Source: Winogradskyella marina (GTDB taxonomy: Bacteria > Bacteroidota > Bacteroidia > Flavobacteriales > Flavobacteriaceae). Taken from it: a stretch of 64,000 bases of DNA. Numbering within the stretch: position 1 is the first letter of the stretch; each line of letters starts with the position of its first letter. The position numbers and the translations under genes were made by a program. The notes below the pieces were generated by a model. That model did not search any database. It had not been told where the DNA came from and saw nothing but the letters and a program-made list of their open reading frames with translations. Location of the stretch: positions 62,001 through 126,000 of the forward strand of contig NZ_JADOET010000002.1 in the NCBI RefSeq assembly GCF_015645385.1. Direction: 5' to 3'. This document shows, one piece after another, positions 52,662 to 60,353 of this stretch.

Positions 52662-55286
52662 TTACTGCAGCTTTAAATACGCATTTAAGTTTTTATGTCG
52701 TTGAATAATCGCATAGTTTGGTGATGAAATAGCAAAGTATGGCCGCGTTATTTTTGGTTTAATGACACGCCCTCTTTTATCCTTTTCTTCTGACTTAAGC
52801 AATTCACCAAACCCATTGGCTCCATTTATACTTGTTAGACCATGAACCACCACAAAAGTGGTGTTTTCAGTGTAAAGATCTTTTGAAACTGTAAGATCAA
52901 AGTAGTCGATTTTTGCAACTTCTTCTTCTAAAGTCTTTATAAATGCTTCAATATCTTCACCCGAATTATTTTCAAATTGAAATATGACATTAAATTTGTC
53001 AGTATCATCATCTGAAATAAATTCTTTCTTCTCTAGCACAGGAAGTGCTTCGTTTATAATTTCTTGAGCCCTTTTGCCTTCGTCAGTATTAGCATAAGTT
53101 AATGCAATATAGTTAATACCTTCTTTGTAAGCTTCAAAACCATAAAGTCTTCCTTTTGCCGATGCTTTTAAGATTTCAAACTTAGGTACAAAATCACCAC
53201 CTTCAAATCGCTTTATCTGTGCTTCTGCTTCTGTAATAACAGCTGCATATTCTTCGTTTTCAAATTGTTTATAAAGGGTTGTGTAAATGAATTCTGGACT
53301 GTTTTCATCCTTAGACAATTCCGATTGTGGATTTAATAATATCTCCGCGTAGCGCGACTCTGGATAGTCTTGTATAATAGCAGACTTCATTGCTTCTGCT
53401 TTTTGGTTTAAACCTAATTCTAGATAAATTCCGTACAAATTATATTTTGAAGGTAAAATTAAACGGTCTTCAGGTTTATTTTCCAATAGGTTTTCGAGTT
53501 TAGACTTTGCCAACAGAAACTCTTTAAACTTTTCTTTATAAATAATTCCTAATTGGTAATAGGCAAAGTTGCGCTCTGTAGCAATACTATCTATTTCCGT
53601 TTGTTCTGTTGGTAAGGATGCTAAATAGGTTTCAGGATTAAAACGAACATCTTCTATTGTTTCGCCTGTTTCCTCATCTTCTTTAGACGTATTTACAATA
53701 TCTGCACGCTGACTAGAATGTCTCCAATTATCTTGTAGCTTACGATCTCCCCAAAGCTTTAGGAATTCATTTTTTCCATAAGCTACTGTCGTTGCATTAT
53801 AAAAATAAAAACTACTACTTGCGCTCGCTCCTGAGGCTTGTAGCGTTCTAGAGGTTCCTGGAGGTCGTTTTGAAGCTTGTGATGCTACGGCCCTGCCTTT
53901 CTGCTTTAGATTTCCAGCTGTTGGCGCTACTTGCCTTTTTTGTCTTTCTAAAGCTTCTTCTTGTTGTTTTTGTTCTTCTAATGCTTGTAAACGAAGTGCT
54001 TCAGCATGTTTTGTATAAATCGCTAATTGTTCTGATTTTGGAAGACTTACCATCCTTAAAATACTATCATTAGTTTGAGCTATGCCTTCGTAATAGATAA
54101 CGTCGTCAAGATTTTCGCGCTTTCTTTTAATAATTCGGTATGGTTTTGAATTTTCAACCATTGCCGTCATTGTACTGTCGTAATAGGCTCCAGCGGTTTT
54201 ATAAACGTTTCTATCAAAATACATATTCCCTAAAGTTTCATAACTAAGTGCCCTAAGGTGCTTGTCTGAGGTTGTTTTTCTCAGGGATTTATTATAGTAT
54301 GCTTCGGCAAGACTGTCTGTTGTATTAGTGCGATGGTATTCTGCAATGCGGTAATATATTTTATCTAAAAACGGTCTGTTCTCTCTATTTTCTTCTAATT
54401 CTGTAAGGTATTCTTCAAATTCAAGTTGGTTACCGTTTAATACATCAAAATTATTTGACTTTTCTATATGTGCATTAATGTAAAATGATCTTGGGACCTT
54501 ACGATGCAAGTCTATGATGGCGTCAAATTCAATATTAGCACTGTCTTTTTTACCAAACTCATTATATAACTGTCCTTTAATAAAGTGGTATCGCGCTTTT
54601 TCTCTTTTAACTTCAGTGTTTTTTGCTGCAATATCGAGCTGAGCAATTGCACTATCTTTAGATTTAATGTTGATATACGCTTGTGCTAAAGTTGCTGTAG
54701 CATCTGCCAAATCTTGCCCTTCAATGTCTTCTTCTTTTAATAAACGTTTTAGTTTTTCAATGGCTCCAGCATCATTATCTAAACGCATGTTTGTTTTTTC
54801 GCGCCAAATTTTAACTTGGTTGATTTTATCGCTCGTTGGATATTTATTTAAAATATTGTTAAACGCAGCCATGGCTGGCACAAAACGTTGATCGAAATAA
54901 CGCGCTTGACCTAAAAGTAAATAAGCTTCGTCTATTTGAGGATTTTTTTCTTTTCCGTCGATATTCATGCCATGTACCTGAATCGCTTTTATGGCTTTTT
55001 CTTCGGCACGTTCAAAATCTGCATTTTTTGTTTGTCCTGGCAGAAAGATATCTTCGGACACATTCATACGCTCCACAGGTAAAAGCTCCCAGAAGTTTTC
55101 TGTAAACTCATTATTAACGGCATCTTTTCCACGCTCTAAAGCAATATTGCCATTATAAAGCACATTGTATTTTGTGCCCATAGCATGAAATTGTCGGTTT
55201 ATAAATTTATCCTTTTTACGTGAACAGCTTTGAGTAAGCATCACCACGCAACATAGCGATAATATGAATTTGTAATAGGTTTTCAA
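52662..55286 (-). CDS. sprE: Gliding motility/T9SS lipoprotein SprE (PorW)
   Basis: An 874-residue lipoprotein: signal peptide with VMLTQSC lipobox (Cys21), then many TPR-like helical repeats and a proline/glutamine/serine-rich central stretch (about 445-490). Length and sequence match Flavobacterium johnsoniae SprE and Porphyromonas PorW, required for gliding and for T9SS secretion. A C-terminal domain (from about 780, FNVIFQFENNSGEDIEAFIK) is the conserved PorW end. It precedes bactofilin by 17 bp. It supplies the machinery for the T9SS cargo genes in this window. Confidence 0.9.
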   Translation of the reverse strand: MKTYYKFILSLCCVVMLTQSCSRKKDKFINRQFHAMGTKYNVLYNGNIALERGKDAVNNEFTENFWELLPVERMNVSEDIFLPGQTKNADFERAEEKAIKAIQVHGMNIDGKEKNPQIDEAYLLLGQARYFDQRFVPAMAAFNNILNKYPTSDKINQVKIWREKTNMRLDNDAGAIEKLKRLLKEEDIEGQDLADATATLAQAYINIKSKDSAIAQLDIAAKNTEVKREKARYHFIKGQLYNEFGKKDSANIEFDAIIDLHRKVPRSFYINAHIEKSNNFDVLNGNQLEFEEYLTELEENRENRPFLDKIYYRIAEYHRTNTTDSLAEAYYNKSLRKTTSDKHLRALSYETLGNMYFDRNVYKTAGAYYDSTMTAMVENSKPYRIIKRKRENLDDVIYYEGIAQTNDSILRMVSLPKSEQLAIYTKHAEALRLQALEEQKQQEEALERQKRQVAPTAGNLKQKGRAVASQASKRPPGTSRTLQASGASASSSFYFYNATTVAYGKNEFLKLWGDRKLQDNWRHSSQRADIVNTSKEDEETGETIEDVRFNPETYLASLPTEQTEIDSIATERNFAYYQLGIIYKEKFKEFLLAKSKLENLLENKPEDRLILPSKYNLYGIYLELGLNQKAEAMKSAIIQDYPESRYAEILLNPQSELSKDENSPEFIYTTLYKQFENEEYAAVITEAEAQIKRFEGGDFVPKFEILKASAKGRLYGFEAYKEGINYIALTYANTDEGKRAQEIINEALPVLEKKEFISDDDTDKFNVIFQFENNSGEDIEAFIKTLEEEVAKIDYFDLTVSKDLYTENTTFVVVHGLTSINGANGFGELLKSEEKDKRGRVIKPKITRPYFAISSPNYAIIQRHKNLNAYLKLQ

Positions 55287-55579: not shown

Positions 55580-56302
55580 TTATTCTTCCTCTTGCATTGC
55601 CATTGCAGTGCCAGAAAAATGTGCTTCCAATTCCTTTAATGTTGCAGGATTGGTTTCTAAATCTTTAATCACATGTCCTTTTTCTAACACAACGATACGT
55701 TCGCACACATCTGTAACATGCAATAGATCATGACTAGAAACTAATACCGTAACACCTTTTTTATGTGCTAAATCTCTGATGATTTCTTTTAATCGGATTT
55801 GAGTGGTTGGATCTAAATTGGCAAAGGGTTCGTCTAAGATGATCACTTCAGGATTTCCGATTAGTGCCGCTACGATTCCGGCTTTCTTTTGATTTCCTTT
55901 ACTTAAATCCCTAAGGTATTTTTTTTGATTTAAAATTTCGCCATGGAAAAAATCTTGAAACTGCGTTAATAAAGCGTCAACATCTGCTTTGTTTTGGCCG
56001 CGTAATTCGCCAATAAAATAAAAATATTCTTCTGGTGTTAAATAACCGATTAAAAAGGTTTCGTCTATAAATGCAGACGTAAATGGCTTCCAGTCTTCAC
56101 TTTCATTAACCAGTACATTATTATTTTTTATATGTCCTGTGGTAGGCTGAATTAAATCTAACAACAAACTAAAATAGGTTGTTTTTCCTGCGCCATTATT
56201 GCCCACAAGTCCAAAACTTTGACCTTTAGGAATCTCTAAACTATCGATTTTTAAAACCGTATTGCTATTATATGTTTTTGATAAGTTGGATGTAATAATC
56301 AT
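55580..56302 (-). CDS. ABC transporter ATP-binding protein (DUF5687-associated)
   Basis: A 240-residue ATPase with Walker A GNNGAGKTT near residue 35, signature LSKGNQKK, Walker B VIILDEPFANLDP and the H-loop VSSHDL. The neighbouring gene, 4 bp upstream, encodes the DUF5687-type permease. The pair resembles ABC-2-type exporters. Its place at the end of the PadR operon suggests regulated export or membrane-stress response. Substrate unknown. Confidence 0.9.
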   Translation of the reverse strand: MIITSNLSKTYNSNTVLKIDSLEIPKGQSFGLVGNNGAGKTTYFSLLLDLIQPTTGHIKNNNVLVNESEDWKPFTSAFIDETFLIGYLTPEEYFYFIGELRGQNKADVDALLTQFQDFFHGEILNQKKYLRDLSKGNQKKAGIVAALIGNPEVIILDEPFANLDPTTQIRLKEIIRDLAHKKGVTVLVSSHDLLHVTDVCERIVVLEKGHVIKDLETNPATLKELEAHFSGTAMAMQEEE

Positions 56303-56306
56303 AATT

Positions 56307-57779
56307 CTAATTGTTTTGTTTGTAAGCCACTAGTGTTTTATACTTTTCAGATTTGTAAATCTTCTCGATAATACTAAATACCTTATTTTTAAATAATAAA
56401 CCTATAAGTCCTGTTATTGCTACCAAAGCAAAGCCTAACACTTCGCTGTAAGCAAAATGACCTATGGCATAAATTACCATGGGTAACACCAATTTAGGAA
56501 TGGTTAACAGCAACGTCTTTACATTAAATGATTTTTTATCTCCGAACGCCTTTTTTGCAGAAGTTAAATCTATCGGTGTTTTTATATACGCTCCTCCCCA
56601 AAGGACCATATGAGAATTAACTCCAATATTATAAATAGCACCTACAACAACAGCTGCATAAGCTTGCCAACCAAAGTAGAGATAGAATGAGGCAATAATT
56701 GTTGTGAAAACCGTAGCAATAACCATAAGATACCATTTGGATTCTAAATATTCCTTATATCTAATATTCTGACTCATTAAGAGCGGATAATAAGCACTAT
56801 CCCAGCTCGGCACAAATTGACCGAAACTAAACAGAAAACCACCCGACACAAAAATACCTGCAAAAATGCGCCAAAAAGGACCGTCGTAGACTTCTATACT
56901 TCCTGTAAAAAACAACAAGCCATAGAAAATAAAGAGAAAGCTCATAAAAATGGTCATTTTAGAACGTTTGTTACGTTTTATGAGCTTAATATCATTTTTT
57001 AGAAAGGTTGAAATGCTACCGAAACGATTTAAATAATCCATAGTGTCCGTTTCCGCGATATCTACTTTCTTAGCTAAACCAGCATCTAAATAGAAGTTTT
57101 CTCTAAAATATTTGAATGCCATTTTATACAATACAAAAGCCAATACTATTGGGATTACAGCTAAATAAGGCTGATTATAAAATGCTGAAAAGATTGGTGC
57201 TGTGAATTGCGTCACATCAAAAATATTGAAATAAAGTAGTCCTCCTAAAATTGCTATGACACCAATTACAGCGAAGAAAACAACATCTTTACTATTGACA
57301 AAAATATTTATGAAATTGTTACAATACACAAGTGCAAGCATCGCTAAATGCCAACCCAACACATTTATAAACGGATGACCTTCTATGATTAAAACAATTG
57401 AAAAAGGAATAAAAAAGAAAGCATGCCAAATGTTGAAAAATGAAATCATTGTTTTATTGATTCCGAATTTAACAATTTGATCCTTCTTTAATGGTAAATA
57501 CAATAGCGGTTTAATATTTACAATAGGCATTTTTTGTAGAAAATACTTAAAAACCAAATCGAAAATAAAATAGAAGATTAAAAATTGGTTGATGATTTTT
57601 AATGGTTCTGGATCAACCATTTCTTCAATAAGATAATAGGCGCCAATACCTGCTCCTAAAGCATATAATAACATAAAAAACGCACCAAAAACCATTAATA
57701 TTTTAAGTGCTAAGTTGACCTGAAATGAAGCAGAGCGCGTAAACGCTTTCCATTCTAGATTTATAAATTGTTTTATCAT
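56307..57779 (-). CDS. ABC transporter permease, DUF5687 family
   Basis: A 490-residue protein with about 12 predicted membrane helices, opening MIKQFINLEWKAFTRSASFQ. This start is characteristic of the DUF5687 family, the permease partner of an ABC-2-like ATPase in Bacteroidota. A cytoplasmic stretch around 235-265 is charged. It is encoded between three small paralogous membrane proteins and its ATPase, in a PadR-led operon. Transported substrate is unknown. Confidence 0.82.
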   Translation of the reverse strand: MIKQFINLEWKAFTRSASFQVNLALKILMVFGAFFMLLYALGAGIGAYYLIEEMVDPEPLKIINQFLIFYFIFDLVFKYFLQKMPIVNIKPLLYLPLKKDQIVKFGINKTMISFFNIWHAFFFIPFSIVLIIEGHPFINVLGWHLAMLALVYCNNFINIFVNSKDVVFFAVIGVIAILGGLLYFNIFDVTQFTAPIFSAFYNQPYLAVIPIVLAFVLYKMAFKYFRENFYLDAGLAKKVDIAETDTMDYLNRFGSISTFLKNDIKLIKRNKRSKMTIFMSFLFIFYGLLFFTGSIEVYDGPFWRIFAGIFVSGGFLFSFGQFVPSWDSAYYPLLMSQNIRYKEYLESKWYLMVIATVFTTIIASFYLYFGWQAYAAVVVGAIYNIGVNSHMVLWGGAYIKTPIDLTSAKKAFGDKKSFNVKTLLLTIPKLVLPMVIYAIGHFAYSEVLGFALVAITGLIGLLFKNKVFSIIEKIYKSEKYKTLVAYKQNN

Positions 57780-57830
57780 AGTGTAATGATGGGTTGGTTT
57801 ACCTAGTAAGTATTAAAAAAAGGAGATTTG

Positions 57831-58520
57831 TTACAAACAAAATTCAGGATAGGTTTCGTTGAGTAGTTTTTCCGCTTTACTTGGTAAGACTTCAAAGCTG
57901 ATATAGCTGATAATTACGAAAGCAGTAAATGCTAATGATAAACCGACAATAAAGTAAATGTTCGTTATAAAACCCTCTGGTATTCTATATACATTATATA
58001 ATTGCGACATAAAAACCATTGACGTTACTCCAGATTGTCTAAAAATAATTTCTTCTAGCATCCATTTTTTGTTCGAAATTTCCTTTCTACGTCTAAATTG
58101 TCTATTAAGTTGGATACCTTTATAAATGGCCCAAATTATTATAATACCATAAAAAACCAAGGCTAAAATTGGCGTATAAAAAGTAGAGAAAGCCAAATAA
58201 AACCCTAAAAACAAACTTAACGTTGCAAATATTTGTGGTAACGCAAACCAATTTTTAAGTTCATTCCATAAATAACGCCTATAACGTTTATTCATCGCTT
58301 TAGCCCGTTGTTCAATAGCGTCCATAAAACCACAGACACCAAATTTCTTGAAAGCTTTGTTTTTAGCCTCTTCAAAACTGAGTTTGGGTTGATTTTGCCA
58401 TTGGGTTTCAATATCATTAGCTAAATGATCTACGGGTTCGGTTTGTAAGTCGTAATGCTCCACAAAATGTTGTCTTGTGAAAGCGTAGAGATCTTGTATT
58501 TGAGGTTCTGTTAGTTTCAT
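57831..58520 (-). CDS. HAAS-like N-terminal domain membrane protein (paralogue 3)
   Basis: A 229-residue protein. Residues 1-65 are a polar helical domain (MKLTEPQIQDLYAFTRQHFV, ETQWQNQPKLSFEEAKNKAF, KKFGVCGFMDAIEQR) with the paralogue-wide DH pair at VDHL; then about four to five helices. It resembles HAAS-type proteins encoded next to PadR regulators in Firmicutes. The stop and start of neighbouring genes touch (1 bp). The most divergent of the three paralogues. Confidence 0.75.
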   Translation of the reverse strand: MKLTEPQIQDLYAFTRQHFVEHYDLQTEPVDHLANDIETQWQNQPKLSFEEAKNKAFKKFGVCGFMDAIEQRAKAMNKRYRRYLWNELKNWFALPQIFATLSLFLGFYLAFSTFYTPILALVFYGIIIIWAIYKGIQLNRQFRRRKEISNKKWMLEEIIFRQSGVTSMVFMSQLYNVYRIPEGFITNIYFIVGLSLAFTAFVIISYISFEVLPSKAEKLLNETYPEFCL

Positions 58521-59243
58521 TTATAAAAACTTGAGACTAAATGATTTTTTATTCTCTTCATACACCTTCCGATATACATCAATATTAGTTCTTATCATTG
58601 GATAAAATAAACATGCAACAACTACAAAGAAGCCATCAGGCATACTTGCAGCATTTTCGTAATTTTCCTTTAAGATATAATAGGAAAGATTATACATGGA
58701 CCAAACTAACATCGCAGAACTTGTTGCCATTGCAAAATTCAAGGATTTTCTAGTAGACTTATCTTTAAAAGTATAATATGCTGAATAAATAGTAGGCAGA
58801 ATTAATACCAACAAACCAATAAGAAAACTTAACTCTGGTTTAATTTGATAGATTGTAATAAATGACAAAATAACTGCGATGTATTCTAACCAAAATTTAA
58901 AGGTTAAAAATTTAGTTTTAAGATGGTTCCATGTCATTTTTCGGTATTTCCTACCAAGTTCTTTCTGCTTATTTCTCGTAAATTTCTTAAATCCAATATT
59001 ACTCTGATACAATCCTTTTTCAAAAATTCTGTCCTTTGAAACACCGAATTCTATAAATTGATTTCCAAATCCTCTATGAACTTCGAGCAATGCTTCATTG
59101 AAAGAAATACCATCATTTGCCATTTTATCTTCTACAGCAGACACAATGTGGTCTAATAATTCTAAACGTACATCCCAAAACTTAACCTCATTTTTAATAA
59201 GGTAGTTGTCTATGAATTTTATTTCTTCTTTTGTTAGTTTCAT
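58521..59243 (-). CDS. HAAS-like N-terminal domain membrane protein (paralogue 2)
   Basis: A 240-residue protein. The N-terminal domain (1-70) reads MKLTKEEIKFIDNYLIKNEV, with LELLDHIVSAVEDKM, and a GISFNEALLEVHRGFGNQFI tail; then about four to five membrane helices and the closing VYRKVYEENKK. It shares its opening with paralogue 1 (MKLTKEDIQFIDTYL). PadR-linked HAAS proteins are thought to act as regulatory membrane partners. Function here is inference from position. Confidence 0.78.
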   Translation of the reverse strand: MKLTKEEIKFIDNYLIKNEVKFWDVRLELLDHIVSAVEDKMANDGISFNEALLEVHRGFGNQFIEFGVSKDRIFEKGLYQSNIGFKKFTRNKQKELGRKYRKMTWNHLKTKFLTFKFWLEYIAVILSFITIYQIKPELSFLIGLLVLILPTIYSAYYTFKDKSTRKSLNFAMATSSAMLVWSMYNLSYYILKENYENAASMPDGFFVVVACLFYPMIRTNIDVYRKVYEENKKSFSLKFL

Positions 59244-59244
59244 T

Positions 59245-59891
59245 TTAGACTACACTTTTAAATCGGCTTTCATAATCCATAAATAGCTTTATGCTTATTA
59301 TAACCAAAATCATCACTAAAGTTAGCGATAGGCTTGCACCACCAATTGTCCATAACAAATCACTTGTTCCGTTGATGTCTTTTGTTCTACTAATAAAGAT
59401 ATAAGGCAATTGGTAAAAAGCTAAAAAAGGAAATGCCAAGCGTTCTACTACTGAGAATCTTTTATTCTGTTTACACCTTGATAAACGACGTAGGTTAGGA
59501 TAAATCCAGTCAATCCAACGAGCGGAATTATAGAAATAAACAGCCTAAACGTTTCTATGGAATAATTTTGAAATAAGATATAAAACCCAAGACAAGATGC
59601 TAAAAAGAGTATAGGTGTCAGTGGACTTTTAAGCTGCTGAACAAAGGTTTTCCATATTTTTTTATCAGCCAATTTTAAAAATTGTTTATTATCATTTAAG
59701 AGTTGTGCTTTGTGTTTAACCATGTAATCTTTGAAAATATCATAAAAGCTTCTCGTATCGCCAGCTTCAATTTGGTTTTCAATATCAGAGGCTACGTGAT
59801 CTACCATTTCCATTCTAATGTCAGCAAAAACCACATCAGAATTCTCTAGATACGTATCTATAAATTGTATGTCTTCTTTTGTTAGTTTCAT
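59245..59891 (-). pseudogene. HAAS-like membrane protein (paralogue 1), frameshifted
   Basis: Two frames join into one gene. The first (59891 to 59448, 147 codons) has MKLTKEDIQFIDTYLENSDV, VDHVASDIE and two to three helices; its reading ends at KDSQ-stop. The second frame (59439 onward) continues KRFSVVERLAFPFLAFYQLP with further helices. Adding one A to the A4 run at 59460-59463 (T4 on plus) restores IKRFSVVERLAFP, giving about 215 residues like the paralogues. So this is a one-base deletion in a homopolymer: a true mutation, phase variation, or a sequencing error. Confidence 0.85.
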
Positions 59892-59903
59892 TTTAAGTTT
59901 TAA

Positions 59904-59957
59904 TACCTACAAGGTTTTAGATGCTAAATCAAGTTCAGCACATGCCTTGCAGGATTA
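59904..59957. repeat. Dispersed palindrome, long form
   Basis: TACCTACAAGGTTTTAGAT, centre GCTAAATCAAGTTCAGCA, and CATGCCTTGCAGGATTAG. The centre matches the copy at 3815-3872. It sits between the PadR gene and the first membrane-protein gene. Confidence 0.72.
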
Positions 59958-59961
59958 GTAC

Positions 59962-60294
59962 TTATGCCAATTTTGGATTTACTAAAGCTTGCATCGTCTT
60001 TATATATTCCGCTAATTCTTCCAATTTATTCACGGTTTCTTTGGTTCCGGTTTCAGTGAGTTTATAGTATTTACGCAATCGGTTATCCACTTTGGCGACT
60101 TCAACATCTAACAAACCTTCGGCTTCTAACTTATGTAACGCAGGATATAAGGCTCCTTCTGTGATTTTTAGTTCACCTTTTGTTAAAGCCTTTACCTTTT
60201 GGGTAATTTCGTAACCATACATTTTATCGTGCTCATTCAATAGCTTTAAAATGATGGTGGTTAAACTTCCTTTATATAATTTTGAATTGCTCAT
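59962..60294 (-). CDS. PadR family transcriptional regulator
   Basis: A 110-residue winged-HTH protein, short PadR subfamily: KLYKGSLTTIILKLLNEHD, YGYEITQKVKALTKGELKIT, EGALYPALHKLEAEGLL and VDNRLRKYYKLTETG. PadR proteins repress their own operon and derepress on ligand or stress. The palindromic sites just upstream match autoregulation. It heads the membrane-protein and ABC genes, a layout well known in Firmicutes but rarely described in Bacteroidota. Confidence 0.95.
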   Translation of the reverse strand: MSNSKLYKGSLTTIILKLLNEHDKMYGYEITQKVKALTKGELKITEGALYPALHKLEAEGLLDVEVAKVDNRLRKYYKLTETGTKETVNKLEELAEYIKTMQALVNPKLA

Positions 60295-60301
60295 CGTAAA
60301 A

Positions 60302-60343
60302 CAAATATATACATAATTTTCTTATGTATAAGACGCTTATGTA
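60302..60343 (-). promoter_or_regulatory. PadR promoter and palindromic operator
   Basis: CAAATATA at 60302-60309 (TATATTTG on the minus strand) is the -7 box, 8 bp from the ATG, so the mRNA is nearly leaderless. TACATAA-TTTTC-TTATGTA (60310-60328) is a perfect inverted repeat abutting it, and a third TTATGTA half-site lies at 60337-60343. Confidence 0.7.
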
Positions 60344-60353
60344 TGTAAAAAAC

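Follow-up and report, generated by a model that had tools for sequence, protein, structure and literature searches.

HAAS-PadR dyads, described in 2024 with PspC, Toastrack, VanZ and FtsX/MacB partners, have been proposed from comparative genomics as an alternative to two-component signaling (PMC11237479). In Listeria, the PadR protein LltR represses its own operon, lmo0599-lmo0601, which contains a DUF1700 membrane protein (PMC6624303). Here we describe an operon in a 64,000-nucleotide stretch of the Winogradskyella marina genome (contig NZ_JADOET010000002.1, positions 62,001 to 126,000; hereafter the window), in which a PadR gene is followed by three membrane protein paralogs (P1, P2 and P3), a DUF5687 permease and an ATP-binding cassette (ABC) ATPase. 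This operon is a variant of the published dyad (PMC11237479). We read it, with a probability of roughly 60%, as an autoregulated envelope-response operon in which PadR would control both sensors and exporter in a feedback loop.

An initial annotation of the window had placed PadR/HAAS partnerships in Firmicutes and regarded this system as one not recognized as described. The former view is too narrow, dyads with several partners having been described and not from Firmicutes alone; the latter stands for the combination of parts and falls for the principle, since the dyad itself is published (PMC11237479). In the open-licence PMC literature, judged by titles and the starts of abstracts, we found no description of stand-alone, multiplied sensors before a DUF5687 exporter, of the operator, or of the exchange of permease types. 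Neither "permease prefix domain" nor "DUF5687" was found mentioned in open-licence PMC papers.

Operon organization and a conserved palindrome at the promoter

Six genes lie on the minus strand in the order PadR, P1, P2, P3, DUF5687 permease and ABC ATPase, the last two adjacent, with gaps from 5' to 3' of 70, 8 (within the broken P1), 1, 0, 51 and 4 bases. These gene calls bear out the initial proposal of a PadR-led operon of same-strand, mostly touching genes. PadR and DUF5687 both score above the Pfam gathering cut-offs for their families. From promoter to 3' end, the features are:

60307-60345, minus strand: putative PadR operator; core palindrome TACATAA-N5-TTATGTA (60310-60328) and a second, overlapping copy
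60302-60309, minus strand: promoter -7-like box TATATTTG, read from the window; the same or a close form lies by the operator in most of the upstream regions listed
59962-60294, minus strand: PadR-family regulator, 110 residues; PF03551 at 75.6 bits (cut-off 27), E 3.1e-21
59448-59891, minus strand: P1, N-terminal 147 codons of a broken paralog gene, from the map of open reading frames (ORFs)
59245-59439, minus strand: remainder of P1 in another frame, membrane part, from the same map
58521-59243, minus strand: P2, 240 residues, prefix/HAAS-like N-terminal domain (N-domain) and membrane helices; NF038403 at E 1.6e-4 (below cut-off), hydrophobic segments
57831-58520, minus strand: P3, 229 residues, exporter-proximal copy; orthologs in relatives, AlphaFold2 model
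56307-57779, minus strand: DUF5687 permease, 490 residues, 12 hydrophobic segments, probable tandem ABC-2-type fold; PF18940 at 656 bits (cut-off 33), E 5e-197, structure comparison
55580-56302, minus strand: ABC ATPase, 240 residues; PF00005 at E 1.6e-21

The putative operator ends at the TATATTTG box, upstream of PadR; the box is called -7-like on what we take to be the Bacteroidota -7 consensus, TAnnTTTG. The initial annotation ended at 60343 and so covered most of this operator and promoter region (60302-60345). With the spacer fixed at five bases and up to two mismatches, 95 of 102 distinct upstream regions contain the palindrome, compared with 6 of 1020 dinucleotide shuffles. A first look with free spacing had found it in 105 of 108 regions, compared with 27 of 540 simple shuffles. 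Because the motif was picked by eye from the window and the very loci counted here, some of which are one genome under two handles, these counts speak for conservation and not for an independent discovery. The palindrome is found in none of the DUF5687 upstream regions of 40 further exporter loci (L277-L316, described below). Within the W. marina genome, a longer form of the pattern has a single zero-mismatch site, which is this promoter; two sites with two mismatches overlap the operator or its neighboring copy, and three others, with three mismatches, do not exceed the count in the reversed control (four). The palindrome's conservation, its position over the promoter and its single occurrence in the genome make autorepression by PadR the most likely arrangement, presumably through binding at this site. 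A lone genomic site is in line with local autorepression, which has been reported for the Listeria proteins LltR and LstR (PMC6624303).

The three paralogs are homologous, with an MKLT start and a DH in common, and in a three-way alignment P1 is 33% identical to P2 and 31% to P3. They were initially described as three tandem membrane proteins; the homology holds, but P1 is not whole here, its frame stopping after 147 codons and its C-terminal part resuming in another frame at 59245-59439. Intact P1 proteins of 215-217 residues are present in three-copy Winogradskyella loci, and long open frames also occur in congeners. Programmed frameshifting is not favored because congeners have a single open frame; the break is either a sequencing error or a real pseudogene. 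The AlphaFold2 model of P3 (predicted local distance difference test score, pLDDT, 87.5) places helices at residues 5-17, 23-43 and 49-91, followed by more helices, and conservation among 30 P3 orthologs is 0.68 in the N-domain against 0.38 in the rest. In a paralog tree the exporter-nearest copies cluster together (79 of 80, plus one intruder) with a support of just 0.52. Over 65 loci, P3 distances track those of PadR (rank correlation 0.72) more than those of DUF5687 (0.41). Pfam and NCBIfam scans also gave weak matches to STING_TM (in 6 of 56 members, the best at 5.9e-5), DUF2207_C, HgcAB_like and Cation_ATPase_N, which we judged to be effects of membrane-helix composition and set aside.

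Conservation and separability of the PadR-paralog module

P3 relatives were encoded in 476 stretches of the genome contigs scanned; the top 80 were retained, as 79 named loci, to which the following counts refer. Among the best 80, the window is closest to Winogradskyella, with P3 up to 75% identical. PadR lies directly upstream of the paralogs in 76 of the 79 loci; the three exceptions are L208, truncated close to a contig end, and L250 and L255, where an unlabeled ORF of approximately 190 residues intervenes. The exporter lies downstream of the paralogs in 71 loci. Nothing comes between in 62 of these and a single ORF does in 7; the remaining two are L218, where it follows directly and the pattern is blurred by a doubtful distant match (132 residues, taken as chance), and L195, where it runs as far as the contig goes. 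Six loci (L242, L244, L245, L247, L251 and L256) have no exporter within the stretch, and in two (L231 and L249) it falls off the contig. Among the 79, Tenacibaculum (five loci) and Flavobacterium (one) provide cases of PadR and two to four paralogs with no adjacent exporter, and PadR with paralogs but no adjoining exporter also occurs in other families of the order (L272, L273 and L274). Labeled paralog copies number one in 16 loci, two in 37, three in 21 and four in 5, although L218 really has three and some counts include fragments, e.g. L231. Gene order is thus conserved among relatives, as the initial annotation supposed; the triplication it emphasized is seen in the window, with one copy broken, and is not a defining feature.

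The arrangement was also surveyed in an even sample of 120 Flavobacteriaceae genomes, which gave a paralog match in 32 (the window's genome included), DUF5687 in 89 and both in 30; the 32 include G108, whose match contains five stops, and G017, with a fragment of 85 residues. Thirty of the 31 other paralog-positive genomes were mapped (L050-L079), and the last, G108, was added afterwards as L277. The paralogs come after PadR in 28 of these 30 loci, and the order PadR, paralogs, DUF5687, ATPase is found in 23, two of them with one inserted ORF. L058 has a different order and PadR is missing; L053 is truncated where its contig ends, L078 is truncated on the PadR side with no exporter seen, and in L063, L069, L074 and L076 no exporter adjoins the paralogs within the stretch examined.

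The exporter was then considered where the paralogs are missing, in 40 loci (L277-L316) from 39 of the 59 DUF5687-positive, paralog-negative genomes together with G108, taken from the top of the score list and not at random. The ATPase adjoins DUF5687 in all 40, and none has labeled paralogs upstream of the exporter; weak paralog matches elsewhere in L291, L292 and L315 were taken as chance. The flanks resemble those of the window, with a divergent gene of 340-385 residues directly upstream in 30 of 40 and a gene of more than 700 residues downstream in 36 of 40. Since ATPase-adjacent exporters with window-like flanks mostly lack PadR, the PadR-paralog module has been inserted at, or lost from, a site just upstream of an otherwise conserved exporter locus.

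Two observations weigh against the envelope-response reading. PadR stands beside DUF5687 in only one of the 40 loci (L302) and is missing from 39, and a P2 search of 18 congeners gave matches in 12 and none in 6. The operon is therefore not universal in the genus, and neither exporter nor genus needs this control. The 13 DUF5687 loci retrieved from outside Flavobacteriaceae have no labeled PadR or paralog within the stretch. The coupling to an ABC transporter seen in the window thus holds for 71 of 79 paralog loci, but as a separable neighborhood.

Two side observations concern the same site. In L302 (5011-6914), PadR directly precedes DUF5687 with no labeled paralog, possibly a half-lost module. 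Occasionally, an ORF of 134-135 residues lies between the last paralog and DUF5687 (L241:8733-9137, L052, L079, L209, L220, L223, L224 and L254), which is DUF2059 in the one scanned; similar-sized ORFs are found just before DUF5687 in L295, L305, L310, L311 and L315.

Identity of the N-terminal domain

Comparison of sequence profiles relates the paralog N-domain to permease prefix domain 1 (NCBIfam NF038403) by homology. When 56 N-domains were aligned by hhalign to 20 prefix domains 1, the match reached 94.6% (E 6.9e-8, score 41.6), against a maximum score of 14.04 in ten controls drawn from the N and C ends of the PadR, ATPase and DUF5687 families, three reversed alignments and the membrane part. 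Prefix domain 1 itself aligns to HAAS with a score of 25.4 (48.6%). P2 matches NF038403 at E 1.6e-4 with 21.4 bits, below the curated cut-off of 30, and is the sole match in its genome; 6 of the 56 family members match at E<=1. Proteins that bridge the families are encoded on plasmids beside PadR genes: a Deinococcus protein next to a PadR-like gene matches both HAAS (6.1e-8, residues 15-72) and prefix domain 1 (1.2e-8, residues 22-74), a Priestia VanZ protein matches prefix domain 1 at 4.3e-12, and in Peribacillus PadR is followed by a protein of 238 residues that matches prefix domain 1 at 9.2e-15 and HAAS at 0.0083. Two further traits of HAAS are shared, namely three consecutive N-terminal helices before the transmembrane region, as predicted for P3, and the coupling to a stand-alone PadR in 76 of 79 named loci.

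Several results weigh against a closer assignment. Pfam HAAS (PF22564) gave no match at E<=1 to P1, its remainder, P2 or P3, and is not among the matches listed for the 56 members (25 of 96 families). Direct hhalign comparison of the N-domains with 30 HAAS domains (20 above and 10 below the cut-off) scored 14.5, which is noise level beside the best control. The GxP motif, which in HAAS goes with a kinked third helix, is missing: F/W-G occurs in 40 of 56 members, none with the proline, and the other 16, including P1 of the window, lack F/W-G. A plain HMMER search with the N-domain profile matches prefix domains weakly (best of 20, E 0.026), with the Priestia VanZ protein at 0.0038, the Peribacillus protein at 2.6 and a DUF1129 protein at 4.1; the link to prefix domain 1 therefore rests on the profile-profile comparison and the bridge proteins. 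Foldseek found no relative of the P3 model in the PDB (best E 2.7), and VIA-align rows for P3 cover mainly residues 90-229, such that the N-domain fold was barely probed and a missing match does not imply a new fold; a PDB sequence search with the paralog profile gave a best E of 0.53. Lastly, small proteins from two Spirosoma plasmids match the paralog N-domain profile at 2.5e-9 and 1.2e-8, but against prefix domain 1 gave no match and E 0.064, respectively. Both plasmids carry PadR, a protein of 159-163 residues and an ABC permease in a row (L317:4492-7824 and L318:4492-7833), the permease being MacB/FtsX-type in the one scanned.

Because the direct match and the GxP motif are both missing, the N-domain is not filed as Pfam HAAS. 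On the evidence of profiles it is HAAS-like by way of prefix domain 1, and the HAAS assignment first proposed survives in this indirect form.

The DUF5687 permease and its divergent types

The AlphaFold2 model of DUF5687 (pLDDT 77.7) has a mycobacterial efflux pump as its best Foldseek match (E 0.14, probability 0.98-0.99), with MATE chains at E 0.21. VIA-align, a second look at Foldseek's own list, places CcmB, NosY, ABCA4, ABCG proteins and the mycobacterial pump in rows 1-39, with Z scores of 8.2-12.6, against 7.4 for the best MATE row, although Z below 13 is common for helical membrane proteins; we take the class of these 39 rows to be ABC-2-like. The pump (8k1m-8k1p, presumably Rv1217c) aligns with the model over 407 residues at Z 11.7 and 5.3 Å (8k1n), and shares 8-10% identity with DUF5687. 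Given the 12 hydrophobic segments, the adjacent ATPase and the structure comparison, DUF5687 is likely a 12-transmembrane ABC-2-type permease with two halves in one chain; this predicted fold is likely and not proven, because middling Z scores come easily to helical membrane folds.

The permease is far more variable than its neighbors. Against loci L179-L186, the window is 96-100% identical in PadR, 70-74% in P3 and 82-85% in the ATPase, yet 37-41% in DUF5687. Its DUF5687 is instead 95% identical to that of W. bathintestinalis (L207), 77-78% to two other Winogradskyella (L189 and L187), and 78-79% to Hanstruepera (L237) and a Lacinutrix metagenome-assembled genome (L208). Clustering of 153 DUF5687 proteins at 55% linkage gave three large types (69, 29 and 27 members) and minor ones, and pairs from the Winogradskyella group are either 30-44% or at least 60% identical, with none between. 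Along the operon, DNA identity to L179, L180, L184 and L186 is approximately 0.5 across most of DUF5687 and recovers inside the ATPase gene. A quick-method tree built for 64 loci from two flanking genes, which may themselves have recombined, requires at least 15 type changes, against a mean of 24.9 and a minimum of 19 for shuffled labels and a floor of 4 for five types. Within Winogradskyella, DUF5687 distances correlate with those of the ATPase (0.89), PorW (0.58), P3 (0.36) and PadR (0.31), where PorW is the name we presume for the protein encoded at 52662-55286, to which Pfam gives a weak TPR match alone. Over all 65 loci the ATPase tracks this flanking PorW gene (0.78) more than DUF5687 (0.57), so the two exporter genes move as a pair only to some extent.

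These data fit the repeated replacement of divergent permease types at one locus; an old duplication with loss is the alternative. Moreover, identity in the P2 region drops sharply against L207, L189 and L184 while the adjoining P3 stays more alike, and paralog slots may therefore be exchanged too. A wider proposal, which we hold tentatively and at somewhat below even odds, is that of a plug-in resistance locus. A conserved, membrane-sensing PadR module with duplicated, diversified sensors (several inputs, one repressor) would precede an exporter slot, and divergent DUF5687 permeases (30-44% identical between types in Winogradskyella-group loci) would be swapped between strains and genera by recombination, as in an arms race with changing envelope-active compounds.

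A model for the operon and its rivals

The preferred reading is built on gene content and order, the palindrome and its uniqueness, domain homology by profile, predicted folds and the separability of the module, from which we infer PadR repression at the palindrome, a cytoplasmic N-domain, its contact with PadR, an inducer and an exporter substrate. It is also favored by the Spirosoma arrangement, in which a small N-domain-related protein stands between PadR and an ABC permease, by the proteins found beside PadR genes in Deinococcus and Peribacillus, and by the precedent of Listeria LltR (PMC6624303). At rest, PadR on the promoter-covering palindrome would keep the whole operon low. The paralogs would sit in the inner membrane with their three-helix N-domain in the cytoplasm, and a membrane disturbance, caused by an antimicrobial, a lipid or an exported compound, would reshape their membrane part. 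The N-domain would then act on PadR, a signaling step from sensor to repressor proposed by analogy, and PadR would leave the DNA. Its release would yield more sensors and more DUF5687-ATPase exporter, and the exporter, a probable ABC-2 permease with its ATPase, would remove the compound and close the loop.

The rival that survives best, though we consider it unlikely, is that the paralogs are subunits or regulators of the exporter, the prefix domain docking on ATPase or permease and PadR keeping a potentially harmful membrane complex low. The last paralog is directly followed by DUF5687 and the ATPase in 62 of 79 loci, which favors this view, yet 6 of the 79 keep PadR and two to four paralogs with no adjoining exporter, and the exporter occurs without labeled upstream paralogs in all 40 loci of L277-L316. 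Most of the Bacteroidota prefix-domain-1 matches listed lie in frames of approximately 800-960 residues, and both the family name and the dyad paper tie prefix-type domains to ABC permeases (PMC11237479); P3 nevertheless tracks PadR (0.72) over DUF5687 (0.41) across the 65 loci. The harm that PadR would prevent has a precedent in Listeria, where overproducing a DUF1700 membrane protein under PadR control does harm at low temperature (PMC6624303).

Less probable still is that the membrane proteins are themselves effectors, membrane-stabilizing in a PSP/Lia-like manner, with the exporter co-transcribed and functionally unlinked. Loci with PadR and paralogs lacking an adjacent exporter, inside and outside the family (L242, L256, L272 and L273), are in keeping with this, but permease and ATPase come immediately after the paralogs in 62 of the 79 loci and one ORF further on in another 7, and an ABC permease recurs in the Spirosoma arrangement. 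Least probable is an ordinary multidrug-efflux operon whose PadR binds the drug itself and whose paralogs are dispensable passengers, since, despite the precedent of the Listeria PadR protein LadR controlling the MdrL pump (PMC6624303), only L302, among the loci mapped for this group of PadR proteins, lacks paralogs beside PadR, and the N-domain is the better conserved part of the paralogs (0.68, with 0.38 elsewhere, over 30 P3 orthologs).

Comparison with known systems

Under the envelope-response reading, the operon would offer a compact test case for HAAS-PadR signaling. It combines a single repressor, a single genome-unique operator, between one and four candidate sensors and a defined output, and its hosts are marine bacteria that can be cultured. 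DUF5687 would gain a likely identity from the predicted permease fold, and an exporter locus is exposed at which divergent permeases appear to replace one another.

The locus resembles the HAAS-PadR dyad in placing a small PadR winged helix-turn-helix protein beside an alpha-helical domain that is N-terminal to multi-transmembrane regions (PMC11237479). Unlike in the dyad as the cited text presents it, the domain in the window is of the prefix-domain-1 type, lacks GxP, and is carried on one to four separate small proteins, mostly followed by the DUF5687 exporter. The same genome holds a second PadR (C2:83585-84123; L096 / L175), which precedes a PspC/LiaI-LiaF-TM/Toastrack protein with a weak HAAS match of 24.1 bits, below the cut-off; this locus is of the published, PSP-type dyad kind, and its membrane part is unrelated to that of the window paralogs. 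With permease prefix domain 1 the paralogs share a homologous N-domain by profile, and Peribacillus offers the matching pair of PadR and a 238-residue prefix-domain protein, whereas the window proteins fall below the curated NF038403 cut-off (21.4 against 30 bits). As in the LltR operon, a PadR that represses itself, here putatively, is followed by a multi-transmembrane protein, which in Listeria is of the DUF1700 family (PMC6624303). The Listeria operon differs in having a DUF4097 exoprotein and one membrane protein, where the present locus has an ABC exporter and up to four (PMC6624303).

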